A model generated the notes under the pieces. That model did no database searches. It was given only the letters and a program-made list of their open reading frames with translations, and was not told where the DNA came from. This document shows, one piece after another, positions 10,522-29,896 of a stretch of 38,054 nt of DNA. Position 1 is the stretch's first letter. The number at the start of each line of letters is the position of its first letter. This DNA is from Bacteriovoracales bacterium. GTDB taxonomy: Bacteria > Bdellovibrionota > Bacteriovoracia > Bacteriovoracales > Bacteriovoracaceae. The stretch is taken from the NCBI GenBank assembly GCA_026713835.1, contig JAPONP010000021.1, positions 1-38,054 of the forward strand, written 5' to 3'. The position numbers were made by a program, and so were the translations under genes.

Positions 10522-10552
10522 TGAGCTTAAAATGCACGACAATTTAAGCTCA
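10522..10552 (+). promoter_or_regulatory. Perfect 10-bp inverted repeat ending on the start codon of the first DUF4143 ATPase
   Basis: TGAGCTTAAA at 10522-10531 and its exact complement TTTAAGCTCA at 10543-10552 are separated by 11 bases. The last A is the A of the ATG at 10552. The left arm overlaps a possible -10 (TAAAAT, 10528-10533; weak -35 TTTATC at 10505-10510). It could be an operator or an mRNA hairpin hiding the start. The second DUF4143 gene at 18810 has the same geometry. Confidence 0.6.
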
Positions 10553-11739
10553 TGATAAAGAATCCTCTCGATAGAATGATCGACCTCACCAAAGAACAGA
10601 GCTTTTTTCTCTTTGGGCCTAGAAACTCCGGTAAATCAACCCTCTTAAAAACTCACTTTAAAGAACTTCAAACCAAAGGCGATATTTTATGGATTGACCT
10701 TCTCGATGCCCAAATCCAATATCAACTCTCCCAAAGACCCTCACTTCTCATGGATATGTGGGATGCCAAAAAACCTCCGTGGATCGTTATCGATGAAATT
10801 CAAAAAAATCCAAAACTACTCGATATCGTTCATAAGATGATGGAGGAAACCTCTGCCAAATTCGCCCTTTCCGGCTCTAGTGCCAGAAAGTTAAAAAGGG
10901 GCCACGCCAATCTCTTGGGAGGACGGGCCCTCCCCTTTTACCTTTTCCCCTTTTCCTTTATGGAGCTAGAAAAAAAATTTAATCTGGATCGGGCCCTTAA
11001 ATTCGGACTTCTCCCTCGATTTTGGGCATCCCCCATGAGCGATAAAGATACCGTACGGGGTCTTTATGCTTACGTCGATACCTACCTCAAAGAGGAAATC
11101 GCTTCAGAACAAATCGTTCGCAAATTGGATCCCTTTCAAAGATTTTTATCCGTGTCGGCCCAATCCAATGGAAACATCATCAATTTTTCCAAAATCGAAA
11201 GAGATGCAGGTCTAGGAGCCTCTCAAGCTCAAAAGCATTTCCAGATATTATCCGATACCCTTCTCGGCGCTTTTCTCCCTCCCTATCACTCCTCCATACG
11301 CAAACGCCAAGAGCGGAAAAGTAAATTTTATTTTTTTGACACGGGGGTTTTGAGGGCCTTGCAAATGATGGCACAAGAAAGTTTGCATCCTTCTACTTTT
11401 GAATACGGAAATTTATTTGAAACATTTATTATCAACGAAGTCTTAAAAATGACCGCCTATTTAGAAAAAAAATGGAAACTTTCCTATCTCAAAACCCAAG
11501 CCGGTGTGGAAATAGATCTTATCGTAGAAAAACCCAGAACTGCTCCGATTCTTATAGAAATCAAATCTTCTTTAGATATCAAAGAGGAGCATCTCAAAAC
11601 TTTAAAACGGCTGGCTTCGGATTTTCCCAAAAGTACACGATACGTTTGGTATCGTGGCCCGGAATCCTATAGGATAGATCAAATTCAGTGTTTACCGTGG
11701 CATCAAGGGATCAAAGAATTATTTGAAATCAATTCATAG
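10552..11739 (+). CDS. AAA+ ATPase with C-terminal DUF4143 (PD-(D/E)XK-like) domain
   Basis: The 395-residue product has Walker A GPRNSGKST at residues 22-30, Walker B WIVIDEIQK near residues 77-85, sensor-like FALSGSSARK, and LLGGRALPFYLFPFSFMEL. The C-terminal half carries the DUF4143 pattern with GVEIDLIVEK and ILIEIKSSLD, resembling a PD-(D/E)XK nuclease core. These stand-alone archaeo-bacterial STAND-like ATPases are common, mobile and poorly understood; defence, toxin and regulation roles have been proposed. No ribosome binding site is obvious, and the start codon lies in a 10-bp inverted repeat. A second, only distantly related member is at 18810. Confidence 0.88.
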   Translation: MIKNPLDRMIDLTKEQSFFLFGPRNSGKSTLLKTHFKELQTKGDILWIDLLDAQIQYQLSQRPSLLMDMWDAKKPPWIVIDEIQKNPKLLDIVHKMMEETSAKFALSGSSARKLKRGHANLLGGRALPFYLFPFSFMELEKKFNLDRALKFGLLPRFWASPMSDKDTVRGLYAYVDTYLKEEIASEQIVRKLDPFQRFLSVSAQSNGNIINFSKIERDAGLGASQAQKHFQILSDTLLGAFLPPYHSSIRKRQERKSKFYFFDTGVLRALQMMAQESLHPSTFEYGNLFETFIINEVLKMTAYLEKKWKLSYLKTQAGVEIDLIVEKPRTAPILIEIKSSLDIKEEHLKTLKRLASDFPKSTRYVWYRGPESYRIDQIQCLPWHQGIKELFEINS

Positions 11740-11932: not shown

Positions 11933-14900
11933 ATGAAGGCATTACTCGTTATTTTCAATTTGTGTTTGTTCTCTTTTTCGTCGGTTTCGTTTGCCGACGA
12001 CTCGAAGTTGTTATCGGACTATGAAAAACTTACGCCGTTTCATGAAAACCTCGAAGTTCTCATGCCAACGAAAGTTTGCGAGGGCCCGGATTGCTCCATC
12101 GTCGGCCAATACGAGGACAACACAAAGGCCATGGATGACTTGCTCAAAAAGACCGAACGGGCCTTAGGCGATCGAGTCGATAGCGCCCAATTTCTTGCAA
12201 CTCCCCTTGGGAAACAGTACGGCGCGCTCAAAAAGTTTATGCAAATCCATCGCAGTTTCCAGTCTTGTCGGGGTGGGGCCGCCTTTTGGACGGGAAAGGA
12301 TTTGGGGAACACCTTGGATAGAATTTCCGCCAATGTGAGCGAAGACGATGTGGCCTCTTGTGATTCGGATTGTGCCCAAAAAAATACTCCCTCCGTTGGA
12401 GACTTGAGCGCTTTTAGCAAAGTGCCCGAGGCCCAACTAGAGGAACACCTCTTGAGAAATTTTATTGCCGGGAGCTTGAGAGCGAGGGCCATTTTTGCCA
12501 AGGAACTTAGGCATCCGGATAAGGAAACGGTGACGTCCCTTTGCCGAGGACAGAAAAAAACGAAACTGCCCCTGGGGATCACTTATCGTAAGGAAAAAAA
12601 TATCTGCAGCGATGATGACAAGAAACTTTTGGGTGATCTCAAAAAGCAAATCGATGCTTCCTCCGTGGCCCCCCTGAGTACTCGGCAGGTGATGAGTGAT
12701 CTCAACCAACACATTGGGGAATTGAACGGTATCCTCGGCCAATACAACGAGCAGAAAAAATCCATCGAAAACAAGTGGAAAGAAGAAGATAAGGATAGGA
12801 AAACGGCCCATGAGACGCCACAGGAACTTGGGCGAAGGCATGGGGCGAGAAAAAAAGAGCTTCTCGATCTCAAGAAGGCCGTTTTGGATAAGTACTACGC
12901 AAAATTTTCACAGCTCGGCGCTAGAACGAATGGACTTTTTCAAATGGATACCATCAAAAAGGCGAGCGGGATGGAGGCACTGGAGGAACTGGCCCCCAAG
13001 TGGTTGGGTTTTGGCGGATTTATCGAGGGAAGTCTTAAAAGCGTCGATGACTTTGCCCCTCTCTCTCCCATCAACGACCGAAAGGTTCTTGCAAAAGCAA
13101 AAGACGAGTATTTTTCCAAAACCAAAGAACAGATACAAGATTTAATCAGAAGAAGAAACGACCGAACGGTTCATGCCAATAGAGACAACATTGCCCATCT
13201 CATGGCCTCAAGTCCCGCCTTGGTGGGGCAAACCCTTGCGGAAAACCCCGACTACGCAGACACCGTTTGCCGTGTGGGCCAAAATATGGCCAAGAGGCGA
13301 AGGGGACTCAAGGTGGCCAAGGGAGCGAGTTACATCGTGGCGATTGGAGGTGGTGTCGGAGTCGGGGTGGCCACCGCCGGTGCAGGACTCCCCCTCGCTG
13401 CCCATTTGGGGATCGGTTTCGCCACAGGTCTTGGTTTTGCCGGCATCGACTACGGCTGGAATAAAAGTGCCCATGTCGAGAACCGAAAGATAAAAGAGGC
13501 CATGCTCAACGCCTATCTCGCCGATCTCGGTGATGACAAGAGCATCGAAGAGATAAGGGAAACTTGGAAAAAGGCTACCGAAGGTGCCTACTGGTCCAGT
13601 GGTCTCGCCGTTCTGGGCTTTTTGGCCACAGATGTGGCCCTCGCTCCCGTGGGAGTTGCCAAAAAGGGAGGGCAAGTTGCAGCTAGGGCCGTGGCAAGTC
13701 GAAGGGCGGCCCGCAATCCCAAGGCAATCGAAAAAGTCACGCCAACGCAAAAGGCACGGGAAAAACTACTCCAACGGATTTTGATGAATCAACAAAAGGC
13801 AAAGGCCTTTGAAAAGTTGAGCGAACGATATCCCGATTATAGGGTGAAGCAACTGTTCAATTTTATCGCATCAGTTCCACCTGAAACCCAAGCGATCCTT
13901 TTGAGTTCCCTTCCCAAAGTCTCAAGAAATTTTTCCAGGCTGCCCAGGCTAAAGGCCGTCAAAGGTGCGCTCAGTAAAGATGAACTCCGGGAGTTAAAAA
14001 GGATCATGAGGAAGCCCACCATCAATGCTGTATTCGATGATACGGATCGGGCCCTTGCGGTAACGGGTCGTTTTCAAAGCGAAACTCGTCGAGTTCTCCA
14101 AACGGGGAAGCCCTCTCCTCATTCAAACCAAGTCATCTCCGGGCTCAATCCCATTGAATACAGCGCTATGTTTCTTGGCAGAGGAAAGGCCGCCGAAAAT
14201 ACCCTGGGGCGAAGTTTGAATAGGCCCCAGAGGGCAGCTGTGGAAAAGGCCCACAAAGTCGGCGCCAAAGAAGTGGGGAAAAACGGCAAAGAAGCGGGAA
14301 TTGGCAATTACACTCAGGCCCAGTTGCAACAAAAAGCGAGAATCCTAAGAGAGGCGGGGTTTAACCAGAAAGAGGTTCGCCAACTCATGGAGGCGGGAGT
14401 CGTCGGACGAGCAAAAACCGGGGAACTCGTTCAACTTCTAGACGAGGTGAGCGAACCCGAACTCATAAGAAAAGTTGTCGATACCCTCAAGACGAGATTG
14501 TCGGAGGCCCCGAATCGGGAGGCCTTTTTACAGGGCCTCGAAGAAATTGGCAAGGGAAAGACGTTTTGGAAAGCACATATACTGGAACCCAAACATATCG
14601 AGCGTTTTTATTCCCTGCAAAGCAATCGGCGACCGACTCCGGAGCAATCACTGAGATTACTCCAATCATTTAAGAAGATGGTGGGAGAGAGTTTTTCAAC
14701 GATACCTACCGGTGCCGAGGGCCGAGCAGCGTATAAGGAAATACTAGACAACGTCGCTTCGGATGTCTTTTTAACAAAAAGCTCTGATGACTCTTTGGCC
14801 TTGATAAAGGGGGTACGCGAGGTCGCCGGAAGCCAAGGCGTTGAATATATGCTCGACACCTCCGGCATAAGGCGGTTTTTTGCGACAAGGCCAAATACGA

Positions 14901-17341
14901 GGCAAAAATCCCAGTTTGCAACGGCAACAAAATCCACAAAGCATCACGACAATGTTCTCGTCTATCTCGAAGGGGCCAAGATACTCCCTCAACCCCAAAC
15001 GGCCGATGAACTCTTGAATTGGGCAAAAGCGGCACAAAAAAGCAAGGGAAGAGAATGGGTGGCCAAGCAACTGACTCCCCTCGTAGTCGAAGATTTTTTA
15101 AAGAAAAACCCCGGCGGCGATAAAATTTTTGAGTTATTGCAATGGTTTAAGGGGAGCGATACCACCGCTGTCGGCAAGGCCCGCATTGAGCAGGTCGTTG
15201 ATCTGCTCCAATCTCATCTTTTTTTGACCAAAAGCCCCGATGAGTTTTTGGGTTCCCTCAAGGGTGTCGTCAAGCTTGGAGCGAGGGAAAATGCCATTGA
15301 ACTTCTGAGCCCGGGTAAGATTGATAATTTCTTTGCCAATGCTCCCACGGCAAAACAAACGGCCGAACTCTTAGAACTTCTCGGAGAACCCATCGGGGCG
15401 CGCTTGCGATTAAACCAACGGACACTGAGTGGACTTGAAAACGATGTCCTCGATTCATTGATGGGCAAGATACGGGTTCAAACGGTGCGAGCGGAAGATC
15501 CCAAAGATTTTTTAACTCTTATCGAAGGGGCCCAAAAAGTGTTAAAGAATCACAATTTGCCTCCCAACCATAGGTTACGACCGACCCTAGAAGACCTCGA
15601 TAACTTTTTCTCTATGGGCCCCACACTCGACCAGAAGAGACGACTTTTGGGATTATTTAATAACCCCGAAATGAAAAAACAAATTGAGAAGAGAATTGCA
15701 AAAACGTTGACGAATGGTGAGACAGTCACGGATGCCGTGCGCCGATTGGCGGGGCAAAAAGCAAGCCCCATCGAGAATGTCTTTGATGAATTTCTTAAGA
15801 ATACTCAGGGTCAGAATGGGGCATCCAGGGTCGGTATGGCCCAGACGACCCTCGAAAGAATCCTCACTCCCGGGCAAAGAGAAGCCGTTGAAAAGGCCCA
15901 TCTCGTGGGAACGGGAGAAGTGGGAAAAAACGGCAAAACCGCAGGGCTTGGCAATTACACCAAGGAGCAACTCCTACGCAAGACCCGCATCTTGCGCGAA
16001 GCGGGGTTTGGCCCAAAAGAGGTTCGCAAACTCATGGAAAAAGGAGTTGTGGGAGAGGCCAGCGACATCCACCTCATTGAATTGATAGAAAATGGCGTCG
16101 CTTCCAAGAAATCTAACGTGGATATTGTGGCAGGAATTCTTGAAGAGAGGATATCCGGTCCCACCTCCTCAGAACGCTTAACGGATATATCTTTAGAGCT
16201 TGCAATCGCAGCACGACGAGCTAATCATTCAGAAAAAATCCTGACGGCCACACCCACGGGACCCGTTTGGCGAGAACTTGATAAACCGGGGAGCAAGAAG
16301 AGTCTTCAATCCCTACAAAGTGTAGCAAAGAGGATAAATCCACTCATCAAAAATAAATTGGCCCACAGGATGTCGCTGGTGACCAGTCCCGATGAATACC
16401 TCGATGCGGCCAAGGGAGTCCGGCAAATGGGAGGAAAAGACCTTCTCATCGAAAAATTGTCAGACGATCAGATCAGAAGATTTTTTGAAATGCCCCATTC
16501 TCCAACTCCAAAACAAGTTTTTGAGCTATTGGAAATCTTGCGGGGAACTCCCTTTGAGGGAGCTTTGGGAAGAACATTACAAGAGATCGAGAAAAGAATG
16601 ACTGGCGCTCCTAATCCAGATGAGATACTCGATTTGATTCGATCGGTTCACGTCGTGTTGGGAGAAAGTGGAATGAAGAGAATACTCAAAGACGAAACCA
16701 TAAAAAATTTCTTTAGAAAAATACCGACAGCGGGTCAAAAAGATGAACTTGTGAGCTTGGCCCTGGGGACGGAACATGAAACTTTAGTTCAAATGTATAC
16801 GAAAAGTCGTGTGCCTTTTCCCAAAGACTCTCCAAAGGGGACTCTGGCCATGGCCAGAAAAATGGTCAATGGTTCAGAGCCGGAAAAGCTCGTAGAGCAA
16901 TTCAACCCCATCCAATTGGATGCATTTTTCTCCAAAAGAGTCCGTCCGACTGAAAAACAAATAACTGAACTCTTTACCCTTCTCGCTAAAAGTGCCAATG
17001 CACCCTCTGGTACATCCACTGGTTGGATAAAGTCTTCAAGATACCTTAGAGTTATCGCTAACGATATAAGCAAGAGGATGATGGCCACGACAAGCTCCGC
17101 ACAGTTTCTTTCATTGGCAAAAGCGATGAAGAACGGCATGGGGGATACCCTGCTCCGTAAAACTCTGCGTCTCAGCAGATTAAAGCATTTCTTTTATACT
17201 AACGACGCCTCTGTAGATGAAGCGGCGGAACTTATGAGACTGGTGGACGATATCGAGATAAAAGCAGAAGTGGCCAAAATGATTAAGGAAAAGTTTCCAC
17301 CAAGTGATTTGACTCCTTTCGAGGAGTGGCTTGCGTTGTGA
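11933..17341 (+). CDS. Giant exported helical-repeat protein (1802 aa)
   Basis: AGGAGG at 11919-11924 stands 8 bases before the ATG. A signal peptide (MKALLVIFNLCLFSFSSVSFA) is followed by about 400 helical residues with many Cys (CEGPDC, SCRGG, SCDSDC, ICSDDD), suggesting disulphides outside the cytoplasm. Two Gly/Ala-rich hydrophobic segments lie at about 463-510 and 553-576. A 65-residue motif (RAAVEKAHKVG..GKNGKEAGIGNYT..LREAGF..KEVRQLMEAGVVG) occurs at about 761-825 and again at 1311-1374. Each copy is followed by a set of 70-95-residue helical repeats with the consensus SPDEFL..KGV, then I..FF, then PT..Q..ELL; FF-type positions are at 892, 982, 1055, 1133, 1225, 1517, 1593, 1665 and 1753. 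No enzyme motif is recognisable. It is probably surface or periplasmic; an adhesive, toxin-like or prey-contact role is only a guess. Confidence 0.85.
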   Translation: MKALLVIFNLCLFSFSSVSFADDSKLLSDYEKLTPFHENLEVLMPTKVCEGPDCSIVGQYEDNTKAMDDLLKKTERALGDRVDSAQFLATPLGKQYGALKKFMQIHRSFQSCRGGAAFWTGKDLGNTLDRISANVSEDDVASCDSDCAQKNTPSVGDLSAFSKVPEAQLEEHLLRNFIAGSLRARAIFAKELRHPDKETVTSLCRGQKKTKLPLGITYRKEKNICSDDDKKLLGDLKKQIDASSVAPLSTRQVMSDLNQHIGELNGILGQYNEQKKSIENKWKEEDKDRKTAHETPQELGRRHGARKKELLDLKKAVLDKYYAKFSQLGARTNGLFQMDTIKKASGMEALEELAPKWLGFGGFIEGSLKSVDDFAPLSPINDRKVLAKAKDEYFSKTKEQIQDLIRRRNDRTVHANRDNIAHLMASSPALVGQTLAENPDYADTVCRVGQNMAKRRRGLKVAKGASYIVAIGGGVGVGVATAGAGLPLAAHLGIGFATGLGFAGIDYGWNKSAHVENRKIKEAMLNAYLADLGDDKSIEEIRETWKKATEGAYWSSGLAVLGFLATDVALAPVGVAKKGGQVAARAVASRRAARNPKAIEKVTPTQKAREKLLQRILMNQQKAKAFEKLSERYPDYRVKQLFNFIASVPPETQAILLSSLPKVSRNFSRLPRLKAVKGALSKDELRELKRIMRKPTINAVFDDTDRALAVTGRFQSETRRVLQTGKPSPHSNQVISGLNPIEYSAMFLGRGKAAENTLGRSLNRPQRAAVEKAHKVGAKEVGKNGKEAGIGNYTQAQLQQKARILREAGFNQKEVRQLMEAGVVGRAKTGELVQLLDEVSEPELIRKVVDTLKTRLSEAPNREAFLQGLEEIGKGKTFWKAHILEPKHIERFYSLQSNRRPTPEQSLRLLQSFKKMVGESFSTIPTGAEGRAAYKEILDNVASDVFLTKSSDDSLALIKGVREVAGSQGVEYMLDTSGIRRFFATRPNTRQKSQFATATKSTKHHDNVLVYLEGAKILPQPQTADELLNWAKAAQKSKGREWVAKQLTPLVVEDFLKKNPGGDKIFELLQWFKGSDTTAVGKARIEQVVDLLQSHLFLTKSPDEFLGSLKGVVKLGARENAIELLSPGKIDNFFANAPTAKQTAELLELLGEPIGARLRLNQRTLSGLENDVLDSLMGKIRVQTVRAEDPKDFLTLIEGAQKVLKNHNLPPNHRLRPTLEDLDNFFSMGPTLDQKRRLLGLFNNPEMKKQIEKRIAKTLTNGETVTDAVRRLAGQKASPIENVFDEFLKNTQGQNGASRVGMAQTTLERILTPGQREAVEKAHLVGTGEVGKNGKTAGLGNYTKEQLLRKTRILREAGFGPKEVRKLMEKGVVGEASDIHLIELIENGVASKKSNVDIVAGILEERISGPTSSERLTDISLELAIAARRANHSEKILTATPTGPVWRELDKPGSKKSLQSLQSVAKRINPLIKNKLAHRMSLVTSPDEYLDAAKGVRQMGGKDLLIEKLSDDQIRRFFEMPHSPTPKQVFELLEILRGTPFEGALGRTLQEIEKRMTGAPNPDEILDLIRSVHVVLGESGMKRILKDETIKNFFRKIPTAGQKDELVSLALGTEHETLVQMYTKSRVPFPKDSPKGTLAMARKMVNGSEPEKLVEQFNPIQLDAFFSKRVRPTEKQITELFTLLAKSANAPSGTSTGWIKSSRYLRVIANDISKRMMATTSSAQFLSLAKAMKNGMGDTLLRKTLRLSRLKHFFYTNDASVDEAAELMRLVDDIEIKAEVAKMIKEKFPPSDLTPFEEWLAL
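14213..14407 (+). repeat. Protein-level repeat A, copy 1, in the giant exported protein
   Basis: Encodes residues about 761-825: RPQRAAVEKAHKVG, EVGKNGKEAGIGNYT, ARILREAGF, KEVRQLMEAGVVG. About two-thirds of residues match copy 2 at 15863-16054, which starts some 550 residues later. From memory, similar segments recur in large secreted proteins of myxobacteria and bdellovibrios. Confidence 0.75.
14490..15690 (+). repeat. Array of five helical repeats B1-B5
   Basis: Five units of 73-92 residues follow copy 1 of motif A. Aromatic anchor positions (ERFY, RRFF, EDFL, DNFF, DNFF) fall at residues 892, 982, 1055, 1133 and 1225. Each unit opens with an NREAF/SDDSL/TADEL/SPDEF/DPKDF segment and closes with a PT..Q..ELL-like helix. 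Boundaries are approximate. Confidence 0.6.
15863..16054 (+). repeat. Protein-level repeat A, copy 2, in the giant exported protein
   Basis: Encodes residues 1311-1374: LTPGQREAVEKAHLVG, EVGKNGKTAGLGNYT, TRILREAGF, KEVRKLMEKGVVG. Closely matches copy 1 at 14213-14407. Confidence 0.75.
16130..17320 (+). repeat. Second array of helical repeats (one degenerate plus four clear units)
   Basis: After copy 2 of motif A, a degenerate unit (around residue 1440) precedes four clear ones with FF anchors at residues 1517, 1593, 1665 and 1753 (RRFF, KNFF, DAFF, KHFF). Offsets from motif A are 206, 282, 354 and 442 residues, against 221, 294, 372 and 464 for B2-B5 in the first array. Confidence 0.55.
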
Positions 17342-17394: not shown

Positions 17395-17402
17395 CTTCCT
17401 TC
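17395..17402 (+). repeat. 8-bp target site duplication, left copy
   Basis: CTTCCTTC immediately precedes the GTAAC end of the miniature element and is repeated exactly at 17519-17526, immediately after its far end. Confidence 0.75.
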
Positions 17403-17518
17403 GTAACTGCTCACCCCCCGGTAATCTTGGCAGTCGACTGCCTCCTACCAATCTTATCCGGGTGGAGAACAGTTACCTTGCCTTTATTACAGTTTTTGCT
17501 AGAGGTGCGAGCAGTTAC
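17403..17518. mobile_element. 116-bp miniature element (MITE), possibly IS66-related
   Basis: The element begins GTAACTGCTC (17403-17412) and ends with the exact inverse GAGCAGTTAC (17509-17518). An identical 8-bp direct repeat flanks it on both sides. An internal, slightly degenerate inverse of the left end lies at 17458-17476 (16 of 19 bases match the complement of 17403-17421). A perfect 14-bp palindrome GGCAGTCGACTGCC lies at 17429-17442. It codes for no transposase. GTAA ends and 8-bp duplications are what I recall for IS66-family elements; family assignment is inference. Its right end provides the TAA stop of the Fic gene on the minus strand. Confidence 0.75.
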
Positions 17519-18609
17519 CTTCCTTCTGCAATCTCTAAAAGTCTTTCAAAGATAAATGTTGCGGATTTTCGACCTACGGATGGCCTTAGGATGAAAATGA
17601 GTTTTTCTTTTTCGAGTTGTCTTAAAAGGCCGTGGGCCGTCGATCGCGGCATCCCCGTTCTTTTACATAAATCGTTAGCTCTAAATATAGGCCGCTTAAA
17701 CAATAAGTCCAATAATTGACCGCTATAGCGAGAACGGGTTACATTGATGATTTTGTTCTTTGTCTCTTCGTATAGCTTCATGATGGATTTGACCCTTTGT
17801 CCATCCACCTTCGCTTGTAGGGAAACGGCCTTTAAATAAAAAGTGATCCATCCCATCCAATCCCCTTTAGATGAGATTGCATTTAATCTCGCATAATACT
17901 CATCACGATTTCTTTCGAGGTAACTCGATAGATAAAACATGGGTCGAATCAACTTTTTTTTCTGAAATAAAAAAAGAGGTATCAACAACCTTCCAATTCT
18001 TCCGTTCCCGTCTTTAAAAGGATGCAAAAGTTCAAATTGAGCGTGCATGAGGGCAGACTGCGCAAGTCTATCAAAATCGTCCAAGCGGAGATAATCTTCC
18101 CAGTCTCGCATATAATCCAATAATTGCAGAGGTGATGGAGGAACAAAAGAAGCCTCTTCAAGAGTACATCCTCGAGGGCCTATCCAATTTTGATCCTTTC
18201 TAAACTCTCCCGGAGATTTTGTCCTTCCCCGAACACTGTTCATCAGATTTTCGTGAAGTTGCAAAATGAGGTTTAAACTCAGCCCATAGTCTCTCACATG
18301 AGCTTCCCCCATCATAAGAGTCTTTCTATAATTTAGAATTTCCCGTATATCTTCGTTTTTATTTTCATCATAGCGTTCGCCGACCTCGTGTTCTAAAACC
18401 TCCTTTTCGGTGGCCTGGGTTCCCTCAATTTTAGAGGACAAAACCGCTTCTTGATTGGTCAAAGGCGAGAGCATCACGACAGGGTTAAGCATTCCTTGAA
18501 GCAAACCGTTATACTCGGCCAATTGAGCGTTGGCCTCTCCGACCAAGCCGATAAGAGCCCGATAATCGAGGTTATCTAAAGGAAGTTTATTTGGTCTATA
18601 AGGTTTCAT
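17515..18609 (-). CDS. Fic family protein (AMPylator-like) with inhibitory helix and C-terminal winged helix
   Basis: Fic proteins transfer AMP or a related group to hydroxyl side chains of target proteins. The 364-residue product has the full active-site loop HPFKDGNGRIGR at residues 196-207. The N-terminal inhibitory motif SSKIEG at 58-63 ([S/T]xxxE[G/N]) makes it a class II, self-inhibited type resembling the SoFic group. The C-terminal 70 residues form a winged-helix DNA-binding-like domain (FRANDLCKRTGMPRSTAHGLLRQLEKEKLI). The ATG has AAGGGAAGGGA just upstream. The stop codon is TAA from the inserted miniature element. Without the insertion, the next codon in the restored sequence is TAG, so the protein end is unchanged. 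It is divergent from the DUF4143 ATPase. Confidence 0.93.
   Translation of the reverse strand: MKPYRPNKLPLDNLDYRALIGLVGEANAQLAEYNGLLQGMLNPVVMLSPLTNQEAVLSSKIEGTQATEKEVLEHEVGERYDENKNEDIREILNYRKTLMMGEAHVRDYGLSLNLILQLHENLMNSVRGRTKSPGEFRKDQNWIGPRGCTLEEASFVPPSPLQLLDYMRDWEDYLRLDDFDRLAQSALMHAQFELLHPFKDGNGRIGRLLIPLFLFQKKKLIRPMFYLSSYLERNRDEYYARLNAISSKGDWMGWITFYLKAVSLQAKVDGQRVKSIMKLYEETKNKIINVTRSRYSGQLLDLLFKRPIFRANDLCKRTGMPRSTAHGLLRQLEKEKLIFILRPSVGRKSATFIFERLLEIAEGR
17519..17526 (+). repeat. 8-bp target site duplication, right copy
   Basis: CTTCCTTC immediately after the GTTAC end of the miniature element, identical to 17395-17402. It lies inside the last codons of the Fic gene (minus strand). Confidence 0.75.
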
Positions 18610-18786: not shown

Positions 18787-18811
18787 ATATTTGAAGTTAA
18801 GCTTCAAATAT
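18787..18811 (+). promoter_or_regulatory. Perfect 10-bp inverted repeat covering the start codon of the second DUF4143 ATPase
   Basis: ATATTTGAAG (18787-18796), loop TTAAG, CTTCAAATAT (18802-18811). The final AT belongs to the ATG at 18810. The left arm overlaps a -10-like TATATT at 18786-18791. There is no Shine-Dalgarno sequence. It is an operator or an mRNA hairpin masking the start; compare 10522-10552. Confidence 0.65.
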
Positions 18812-19973
18812 GCTGGGTTTAATAGAAAGGATTCAACTCCAAAATCGCCTCAAGGAACTTTTAGAAAACTACCCCGCAGTGGCCATTTTAGGAGCAAGAC
18901 AAGTGGGTAAGTCCACTCTGGCCAAACAAATTATCGAGTTATTTAAAGGGGCCGTTTACCTCGACTTACAGCTCCCCAAAGATTTAAATAAAGTTTCCGA
19001 TCCCGAAGCGTTTTTTAGGTTTAATGATCGGGCCCTCATCTGCCTGGACGAAATTCAATACACTCCCAATCTTTTTAGCGTCTTACGAGGGGTCATCGAT
19101 GAAAGGCAAAGAAACGGACAGTTTCTCATTCTAGGAAGTGCATCAAGAGATCTCATTCGGCAAAGTAGTGAAACACTTGCCGGTCGTCTTGCCTTTTTAG
19201 ATATGGGCCCTTTTAACTGCCTCGAAGTCGATGAAGAAAAGTTTTATCAGCACTGGCTAAGAGGTGGTTATCCTCGCAGCTTTTTGGCCAAAAATGATCG
19301 CTTGAGTTTAGAATGGCGCAATAACTATATCCGAACCTTTTTAGAAAGAGATATCCCCCAATTGGGTTTTAATATCCCGGCCCAAACTCTTCATCGCCTT
19401 TGGAAAATGCTGGCCCACTCTCAGGGGCAAACTCTCAATAGTTCCAAGCTCGGCGCCAACCTTGGGAAAACCGCCCACACCATAAAGAACTATATCGACC
19501 TTCTTCAACAAACTTTTATCGTTAGAAAACTCGAACCCTATATCGAAAATGTCAAAAAAAGGGTGATCAAATCACCCAAAATTTATATCAGAGATACAGG
19601 CCTACTCCACGCTCATTTAGGGATCGAAAACATCAACGAACTTTTCGGCCATCCCATTTACGGTGCTTCCTTTGAATCCTACATAGTGGAAAATATCTGT
19701 CATCATCTGCCCCATTGGAATCCCTTTTTCTATCGCAGTAGTTATGGTGCGGAACTCGATCTCGTTTTAGAAAAAGCCGGTAAAATCATCGCCATTGAAA
19801 TAAAATCTTCCACTGCTCCAAAACCTTCAAAGGGCTTTTGGATTGCCTGCGATGATATTGGGGCCGATAAGGCCCATATCATTGCTCCCGTCGATCAAGC
19901 CTACCCTGTCAAAAATGGAGTGACCGTGACAAATCTTCATTCCTTATTGCAAAGCGTGTCCCAAATTTTCTAA
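18810..19973 (+). CDS. AAA+ ATPase with DUF4143 domain (second copy, different subfamily)
   Basis: The 387-residue product has Walker A GARQVGKST at residues 28-36, Walker B ALICLDEIQY at about 75-83, the sensor FLILGSASRDL, and the sequence LAGRLAFLDMGPF. The region from about residue 200 is DUF4143 (YIRTFLERDIPQLG, KNYIDLLQQTFIVRKLEPY, KIYIRDTGLLHAHLGI), ending in the nuclease-like AELDLVLEK and IAIEIKSSTAPK. It belongs to the common GARQVGKST branch, unlike the gene at 10552, so the two are not recent duplicates. Divergent from Fic; flanked by AT-rich imperfect repeats. Molecular function is unknown for the family. Confidence 0.92.
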   Translation: MLGLIERIQLQNRLKELLENYPAVAILGARQVGKSTLAKQIIELFKGAVYLDLQLPKDLNKVSDPEAFFRFNDRALICLDEIQYTPNLFSVLRGVIDERQRNGQFLILGSASRDLIRQSSETLAGRLAFLDMGPFNCLEVDEEKFYQHWLRGGYPRSFLAKNDRLSLEWRNNYIRTFLERDIPQLGFNIPAQTLHRLWKMLAHSQGQTLNSSKLGANLGKTAHTIKNYIDLLQQTFIVRKLEPYIENVKKRVIKSPKIYIRDTGLLHAHLGIENINELFGHPIYGASFESYIVENICHHLPHWNPFFYRSSYGAELDLVLEKAGKIIAIEIKSSTAPKPSKGFWIACDDIGADKAHIIAPVDQAYPVKNGVTVTNLHSLLQSVSQIF

Positions 19974-28948: not shown

Positions 28949-28986
28949 TCACGCTTAGTGCTCCGACCATTTAATCTTTTCCTGCA

Positions 28987-29004
28987 CGTCGCAGGGAAGC
29001 GACG
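28987..29004 (+). other. GC-rich hairpin between convergent genes
   Basis: CGTCGC (28987-28992), loop AGGGAA, GCGACG (28999-29004). No U-tract follows on either strand, so terminator function is doubtful. It abuts the mobile-element end at 29004. Confidence 0.35.
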
Positions 29005-29045
29005 AGGCAGTCGATTGCCAAGATTGCCGGGGGGTGAGCAGTTAC
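29004..29045. mobile_element. Partial second copy of the miniature element (one end only)
   Basis: This 42-base segment, read in reverse complement, matches 17403-17444 at 40 of 42 positions, including the GTAACTGCTC terminus at 29045-29036. No opposite end and no 8-bp duplication is visible nearby (GAAAAAAG follows the end and is not repeated on the far side). The palindrome GGCAGTCGACTGCC of the first copy is here GGCAGTCGATTGCC, still pairable as RNA through a G-U pair. Its end supplies the TAA stop of the 29042 gene. Confidence 0.65.
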
Positions 29046-29896
29046 GAAAAAAGTGGGACGACGAAATTCGGTGAGTGGATCCCACACCAGTTTGGAATCT
29101 CTCTCGTCTTGCCCAAAACGGCCCTTTGTCCCGCCAAGGCCAAGATAAATGAGTTAAAGGCCCTGGGGTTTTTGGTCATGAGGTCGAGGTCTCGATCATA
29201 GATGAATATATCGAGTTTTTCTTCGACGGCGGCCGCAATCCCCACCCGCATCTGGGCCTCCATTTCCATTTCTTTCGGGGGACAAAGTTGGCGAGAAGAA
29301 ATGATTTTTCCGCGCAAAAGTTCGATGAGACAAAGCCTTGGGGAAGTTTCAAGGCAGGATAAATTCTTTGGGAAATGACGCCTGAGATAGTCAAAATAGG
29401 AAAGAAGCATAAATGAGCTATGGTCGAAAGAACCGAATACTCCGTTAAAATGGCGAAAGAGAGGGTCGCCGTAGTTTTCCCAAACCCAAGTATCGAGACT
29501 ACGATTCCAATAGGGAAGAAAGCCTTTTTTCATCTTTCTTCTAAAGGCCTTGGAGCGAGTGGATAAGGCCCCCTCTTGAAGTAAAAGACCGACCCTCTCT
29601 TGTGCGAGAATGACCTCTTCTTGAGGACATACATTCATTCCGGGGCAGGCGAGATCACAATGCCCACAGGGAGGGCGACTCAAGGGAAAATCCACCGTTA
29701 GATTTTCAATGCCAAATTCTTCGATCCAACCTATAAGGGCCTCATCGCCGCTGCCTTCTTTGGCCTGTAAAATAGATCGAAGAAACCATCTTTTAGAGTC
29801 CGGGTAACATTCCAGTATGGAGAGAAAAAAGCTATTTTTTCTCCCTCCGCTTAGAACCAATCCTGCGGCCTTTAAACTTTTCAACGATGCGCTCAC
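29042..29896 (-). CDS. Conserved-looking hypothetical protein with a Cys cluster (possible DUF429-like)
   Basis: I do not firmly recognise this 284-residue protein. It has VDFPLSRPPCGHCDLACPGMNVC at residues 68-90, with Cys77, Cys80, Cys84 and Cys90 as a potential metal site. VDFPL followed by Cys recalls DUF429-type predicted RNase-H-fold proteins, as do a later GIAAAVEEKLDIFIYDRD and SFILALAGQRAVLG, but the match is weak. It starts with GTG at 29896, overlapping the kinase stop by 4 bases (GTGA), so it is the last gene of the tdk-hpt-kinase operon. Its stop TAA is part of an inserted mobile-element end, so the native C-terminus may have been altered. Confidence 0.6.
   Translation of the reverse strand: MSASLKSLKAAGLVLSGGRKNSFFLSILECYPDSKRWFLRSILQAKEGSGDEALIGWIEEFGIENLTVDFPLSRPPCGHCDLACPGMNVCPQEEVILAQERVGLLLQEGALSTRSKAFRRKMKKGFLPYWNRSLDTWVWENYGDPLFRHFNGVFGSFDHSSFMLLSYFDYLRRHFPKNLSCLETSPRLCLIELLRGKIISSRQLCPPKEMEMEAQMRVGIAAAVEEKLDIFIYDRDLDLMTKNPRAFNSFILALAGQRAVLGKTREIPNWCGIHSPNFVVPLFS

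Follow-up and report, generated by a model that had tools for sequence, protein, structure and literature searches.

The stretch of DNA examined here (the window; 38,054 nucleotides of a Bacteriovoracales bacterium, GenBank assembly GCA_026713835.1, contig JAPONP010000021.1) is contig 21 of a 2.34-Mb genome assembled in 235 contigs. Within it, the end of a gene for a Fic-domain protein coincides with a 116-bp repeat that has the structure of a miniature inverted-repeat transposable element (MITE), and the stop codon of the gene is provided by the end of that element. A first-pass annotation of the window had described the 116-bp element, its inverse ends and a flanking duplication at 17395-17526, all of which were confirmed in the sequence. 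The features of the locus, in window coordinates, are as follows:

17395..17402, + strand: left copy of the 8-bp target duplication, CTTCCTTC
17403..17518, + strand: MITE copy of the 116-bp class, derived from the 169-bp form via a 53-bp deletion between direct repeats TGCCTC
17403..17412, + strand: left terminal inverted repeat, GTAACTGCTC
17439..17444, + strand: TGCCTC junction left where 53 bp of the 169-bp form are deleted, placed at the overlap of two alignments to the 169-mer
17467..17476, - strand: internal third copy of the element end, GAACAGTTAC / GTAACTGTTC, 42 bp inside the right end
17509..17518, - strand: right terminal inverted repeat, GTAACTGCTC (forward letters GAGCAGTTAC)
17515..17517, - strand: Fic stop codon TAA, provided by the element's GTAA end
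17515..18609, - strand: Fic-domain protein gene (Pfam Fic_N and Fic), 364 amino acids (aa), full length after the insertion
17519..17526, + strand: right copy of the 8-bp target duplication, CTTCCTTC

As reconstructed from the 8-bp duplication, the empty site at the end of the Fic gene reads GAAGGAAG-G-TAG, i.e. AGG TAG at the same codon. Because the stop of the empty site falls at the codon where the element now supplies TAA, the product is 364 aa both before and after the insertion, and the claim that the element left the protein end unchanged was correct. Distant Fic homologues can be aligned as far as residue 359-360 of 364, and the protein is therefore not truncated. Fic orthologues were also considered as a source of a natural empty allele and were rejected, the homologues being too distant (at most 39% identity).

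The same element occurs throughout the genome. Exact 10-mer ends of the form GTAACTGYTC number 314 in the 2.34 Mb versus 8 for a reversed control, and are therefore not due to chance. At least 96 copies were found (44 complete, 46 left-only and 52 right-only pieces in the 457 kb of DNA examined), so that the element is not single-copy, and it has spread in four size classes of 169, 116, 109 and 89 bp, none of which contains a transposase gene. The 169-bp class comprises many copies and the 116-bp class 13. The three shorter forms correspond to the 169-mer minus 53, 60 and 80 bp; alignments inspected by eye place the breakpoints of two of these internal deletions in short direct repeats (TGCCTC for the 116-bp form, CAATCTT for the 89-bp form). 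Both flanks are usable for 39 complete copies, and 34 of these have an 8-bp target duplication with 7-8 matching bases. An additional 27 copies that are split across contigs were rejoined via unique exact 8-bp duplications, a procedure for which controls gave 0-2 chance matches. The duplicated sequences have an A/T-rich core and outer bases that lean towards C/G, and A/T is preferred symmetrically at a distance of about one helical turn.

Identity among copies is mostly 97-100%, with a few at 75-84%. An older tier of copies (about 79-85% identical) lies on contigs C1, C26, C63, C153 and C216 of this genome (G000), alongside the recent burst, and suggests at least two waves of amplification. 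The assembly owes its fragmentation in large part to the MITE. Fifty of the 143 element pieces in the examined DNA start at the first base of a contig (for instance, at the ends of contigs C7, C14, C15 and C200).

The GTAA ends and 8-bp duplications had initially been taken to recall the IS66 family, and comparison with elements outside this genome supports that assignment. The 19-bp end of the element, GTAACTGCTCACCCCCCGG, is identical to the end of a 1,487-bp insertion sequence (IS) on a Verrucomicrobia metagenome-assembled genome (MAG) contig, L125, which was found by a scan of Genome Taxonomy Database (GTDB) genomes. The opposite end of this IS is an inverted match at 12 of 13 bases, and its single open reading frame (ORF) of 479 aa encodes an IS66-family transposase (NF033517, 258.6 bits against a cut-off of 180; PF03050 also matches). 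No target duplication is visible at the L125 copy. Several other 19-mer matches in the contig scan lie within unrelated long genes and were set aside, as they look like chance. Similarly, ISDge4 of Deinococcus geothermalis, an ISBst12-group IS66 element according to its authors, has ends GTAACTGCTCAGCA/GTGACTACTCAGCA and an 8-bp repeat, and its transposition has been observed (PMC12898284); the end of the present element and that of ISDge4 have 11 bases in common. The likeness to the ISDge4/ISBst12 group consists of ends of the form GTAACTGCTCA..., 8-bp direct repeats and a single-ORF IS66 transposase (PMC12898284), and the L125 IS fits the description of ISDge4 by its ends and its single ORF. 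In contrast to ISDge4, which is autonomous and encodes a 449-aa transposase, the present element is 89-169 bp long and has no transposase gene. The element has features expected of a MITE of this group, namely terminal inverted repeats that start with GTAA and are common to an IS66 element, an 8-bp duplication, and a short, multi-copy body without a transposase gene; a parent IS with an intact transposase and the same ends, which is not required for a MITE, was not found in the same genome.

Insertions are associated with stop codons genome-wide. Genes were called on the reconstructed empty sites with a simple third-order coding model trained on the examined DNA, and for 24 of the 61 sites the end of a stop codon is at most 8 bp away, compared to an expectation of 5.1% of non-coding positions (P about 1e-15) or 1% of all positions. 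If only gaps of at most 400 bp are considered, 16 of 33 insertions are near a stop versus 14.7% expected (P=4e-6); conditional on the gap in which each insertion lies, 9.6 are expected and 16 observed (P=0.002). A same-locus test of the bias gives P=2e-10, stricter gene calls agree, and composition-matched nulls likewise give 5%. Target-sequence causes of the bias (AT content, GC-matched duplications and position weight matrices) were tested and rejected. Orientation at gene ends is unbiased, with the left end towards the gene in 11 cases and the other way in 13.

Location at gene 3' ends, a conserved open frame and a strong long-range hairpin (z -4.0 and -5.5) could also be expected of a host-encoded functional element, such as a terminator, regulatory RNA or protein tag, that is kept for use at the ends of genes. 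However, nearly every complete copy has 8-bp duplications, both orientations occur at gene ends, insertions are also present within genes, and the ends match those of IS66 elements. Additionally, the 19-bp end has no match in the 368 other genomes of the phylum that were tested (nor had an earlier search of 38 genomes given one). The element was not found in the plasmids or IMG/VR contigs searched, and Rfam gives no match to it above threshold. A host function for the repeat is therefore considered very unlikely.

Insertions in this genome also respect the reading frame, with hardly any exceptions among in-gene copies. When the element is entered from either end in phase 2 (the gene supplying two codon bases), GTAA gives an immediate TAA or TAG, and when it is entered left end first in phase 1, or right end first in phase 0, there is no stop across the 169-mer. 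The 169-bp form and its duplication add 177 bp (169+8=177=3x59) and thus constitute an in-frame insert of 59 codons, with a predicted 59-aa segment that begins VTARTSSKNCNKGKVTVLHPDKIGRRQRGATEACF; 109+8 is likewise a multiple of three. There are 26 gene-insertion combinations, of which 13 are in phase 2, all no more than about seven codons from the normal end, and 10 read through in frame, for instance with predicted lengthening from 518 to 577, 468 to 527, 448 to 507 and 674 to 733 aa. The other three are one with a stop inside the duplication, one 116-bp copy that gives its protein an extra tail close to the C-terminus, and one disruptive insertion in a weak ORF. In the last 40 bp of genes, 12 of 15 insertions are in the stop-giving phase 2 (P=3e-4), and after exclusion of the phase-2 copies and the copy with a stop in the duplication, 10 of 12 read through versus one third expected (P=5e-4); because these phase tests were framed after the data had been seen, the P values are only descriptive, and the counts from a second genome, described below, are the sole independent check. 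Among the in-frame hosts are a protein that matches NFACT weakly and a COX15/CtaA-UbiA (CtaA-CtaB) fusion; the copy in the fusion is older (82% identical) and has kept an open frame. Two in-frame copies (L208, contig C179:12261-12429, and L170, contig C153:9459-9627) lie a few codons past the presumed start, inside an apparent signal peptide as judged by eye.

The second genome, Bco_10, is a gammaproteobacterial MAG from the same GTDB scan, and carries about 120 copies of an independent 142-bp MITE that also has short forms (47-51 bp); its ends are GTAACTGCTCACCCCCC[AG]GAGA, and it makes 8-bp duplications (L124, L130 and L233-L322; JAAELC contigs). This MITE has in common with the present element the first 17 end bases, the 8-bp duplications and the stop-codon bias, but it has another interior, and no in-frame read-through copy was seen among its in-gene copies, 5 of 5 being near gene ends. 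Eleven of 56 Bco_10 sites are within 8 bp of a stop (null 4.1%, P=2e-5), and all five in-gene insertions are in the stop-giving phase, as read from distances. Any family of about 100 copies may by chance yield an insertion that spares a stop codon, and the Fic case could in principle be such a lucky, lone coincidence with no wider pattern. However, this genome has 23 further empty sites at most 8 bp from a stop, and the bias recurs in an unrelated genome. The genome-wide counts refute a single coincidence unless the gene calls are badly wrong, and its probability is close to negligible.

Overall, the element is very probably a non-autonomous MITE with ISBst12-group IS66 ends that was mobilised by an IS66-type transposase, with selection on the frame outcome leaving copies at stop-codon ends, in non-coding DNA and in frame. 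The transposase, now lost, decayed or unassembled in this genome, would have acted in trans. Insertion in phase 2 within the last codons would leave the protein ending where it normally does or close to it, and the open combinations of orientation and phase would give the gene an in-frame 59-aa segment. Insertions that truncate genes, or that fall in other phases, would have been lost to purifying selection, with survivors expected in non-coding DNA, at stop codons or as in-frame protein inserts. The Fic copy would then be one survivor of selection on a MITE that genes can tolerate, whether that tolerability happened or evolved. Since the ends carry a stop and the body can be read as protein, surviving copies can be located within genes or at their ends and leave the genes intact. 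Selection is preferred because the phase restriction fits selection against altered proteins, and no target choice at the DNA level readily yields such a restriction.

Alternatively, the transposase, or a host factor that it follows, could actively target regions around stop codons or gene 3' ends, with selection merely trimming the result. The density of insertions peaks within 8 bp of a stop, at 7.7 times the non-coding expectation in this genome and 5.1 times in Bco_10, and it exceeds that of the 9-120 bp zone in both (24:19 here, P=4e-5; 11:18 in Bco_10, P=7e-3); simple target-sequence models fail to explain this peak. However, insertions do not keep a set register relative to the stop. 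Those on the coding side are nearly confined to the phase that spares the protein, a mark of selection on outcome, and the stretch from a stop codon to a downstream terminator may just be where an insertion does least harm. Active targeting is thus regarded as rather unlikely. A stronger version, in which ISBst12-group IS66 transposition is actively drawn to stop regions at gene 3' ends and the ends and interiors of the elements evolved to spare genes in every tolerated phase, is somewhat more doubtful again, and such a target choice was not found in the literature searched. The first-pass annotation had remarked that selection for stop-codon insertion, or a target preference there, would be unusual; the association with stop codons holds genome-wide, but a target preference was not demonstrated, and selection on the frame outcome fits best.

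Several points weigh against a MITE mobilised in trans and shaped by selection on frame. The excess within 8 bp of stops persists after coding exclusion, and selection on frame alone is not fully predictive of it; this excess may be due to avoidance of terminators just downstream or to genuine targeting. An intact IS66 transposase was not found in this fragmented assembly, and a mobiliser is postulated because only decayed PF03050 fragments remain. For the earlier suggestion that a related transposase may mobilise the element, the IS66 link comes from other genomes and the ISDge4 paper, and not from an intact gene in this genome. The element's ends are on 0 of 30 family-level IS66 loci examined, and family-level IS66 copies were rejected as the parent element since the ends are not shared. 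Additionally, the genes were called by a simple trained caller and not taken from annotation, the middle of the copies paired across contigs was assumed to equal the 169-mer, and some N-terminal in-frame cases hinge on which start codon is taken. In the 457 kb examined, other repeat families were too few to serve as a selection control.

MITEs, IS66 ends and in-frame small repeats (RPE, ERIC/RU and Correia) are already known (PMC2229807, PMC2759123). Rickettsia palindromic elements (RPEs) are small repeats of intergenic DNA that are also present, in frame, within protein genes, where the protein apparently tolerates them (PMC2229807). The present element is like them in its in-frame insertion within protein genes (10 copies here), a likeness in mode and not a claim of family membership, but it differs in having clear 8-bp duplications, IS66-type ends and end stop codons that protect gene ends. 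The Correia (Neisseria), RUP and ERIC/RU elements are bacterial MITEs of about 100-170 bp with many copies, some with frames fused to genes, and in the 155-bp Correia and RUP forms every frame contains stops, these forms being found wholly or almost exclusively between genes (PMC2229807, PMC2759123). In contrast, the present element, which belongs to a separate family, gives a stop at either end in a single phase only, and two combinations of orientation and phase leave it open. In the literature searched, neither a description of such a rule for stop codons and reading frame nor a paper naming both ISBst12 and MITE was found. The element provides a quantified case in which a bacterial MITE appears to have reached about 100 copies in an 85%-coding genome via stop-supplying ends and a 59-codon in-frame body, and it ties RPE-like insertion within proteins to a defined transposon family with target duplications. 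The same stop bias in two unrelated genomes makes selection or targeting a directly testable question, and predicted new peptide segments enter conserved proteins, such as the CtaA-CtaB fusion.

The window contains a second piece of the element, on the minus strand:

28979..29045, - strand: second, truncated element copy, corresponding to the left-end 67 bp of the 169-bp form
29042..29044, - strand: TAA of this truncated copy, which ends a called gene at 29042-29884

Directly beside the Fic gene is an 1802-aa ORF (11933-17341) with no Pfam match, and two AAA_14/DUF4143 ATPase genes (10552-11739 and 18810-19973) are located near the Fic gene and this ORF.
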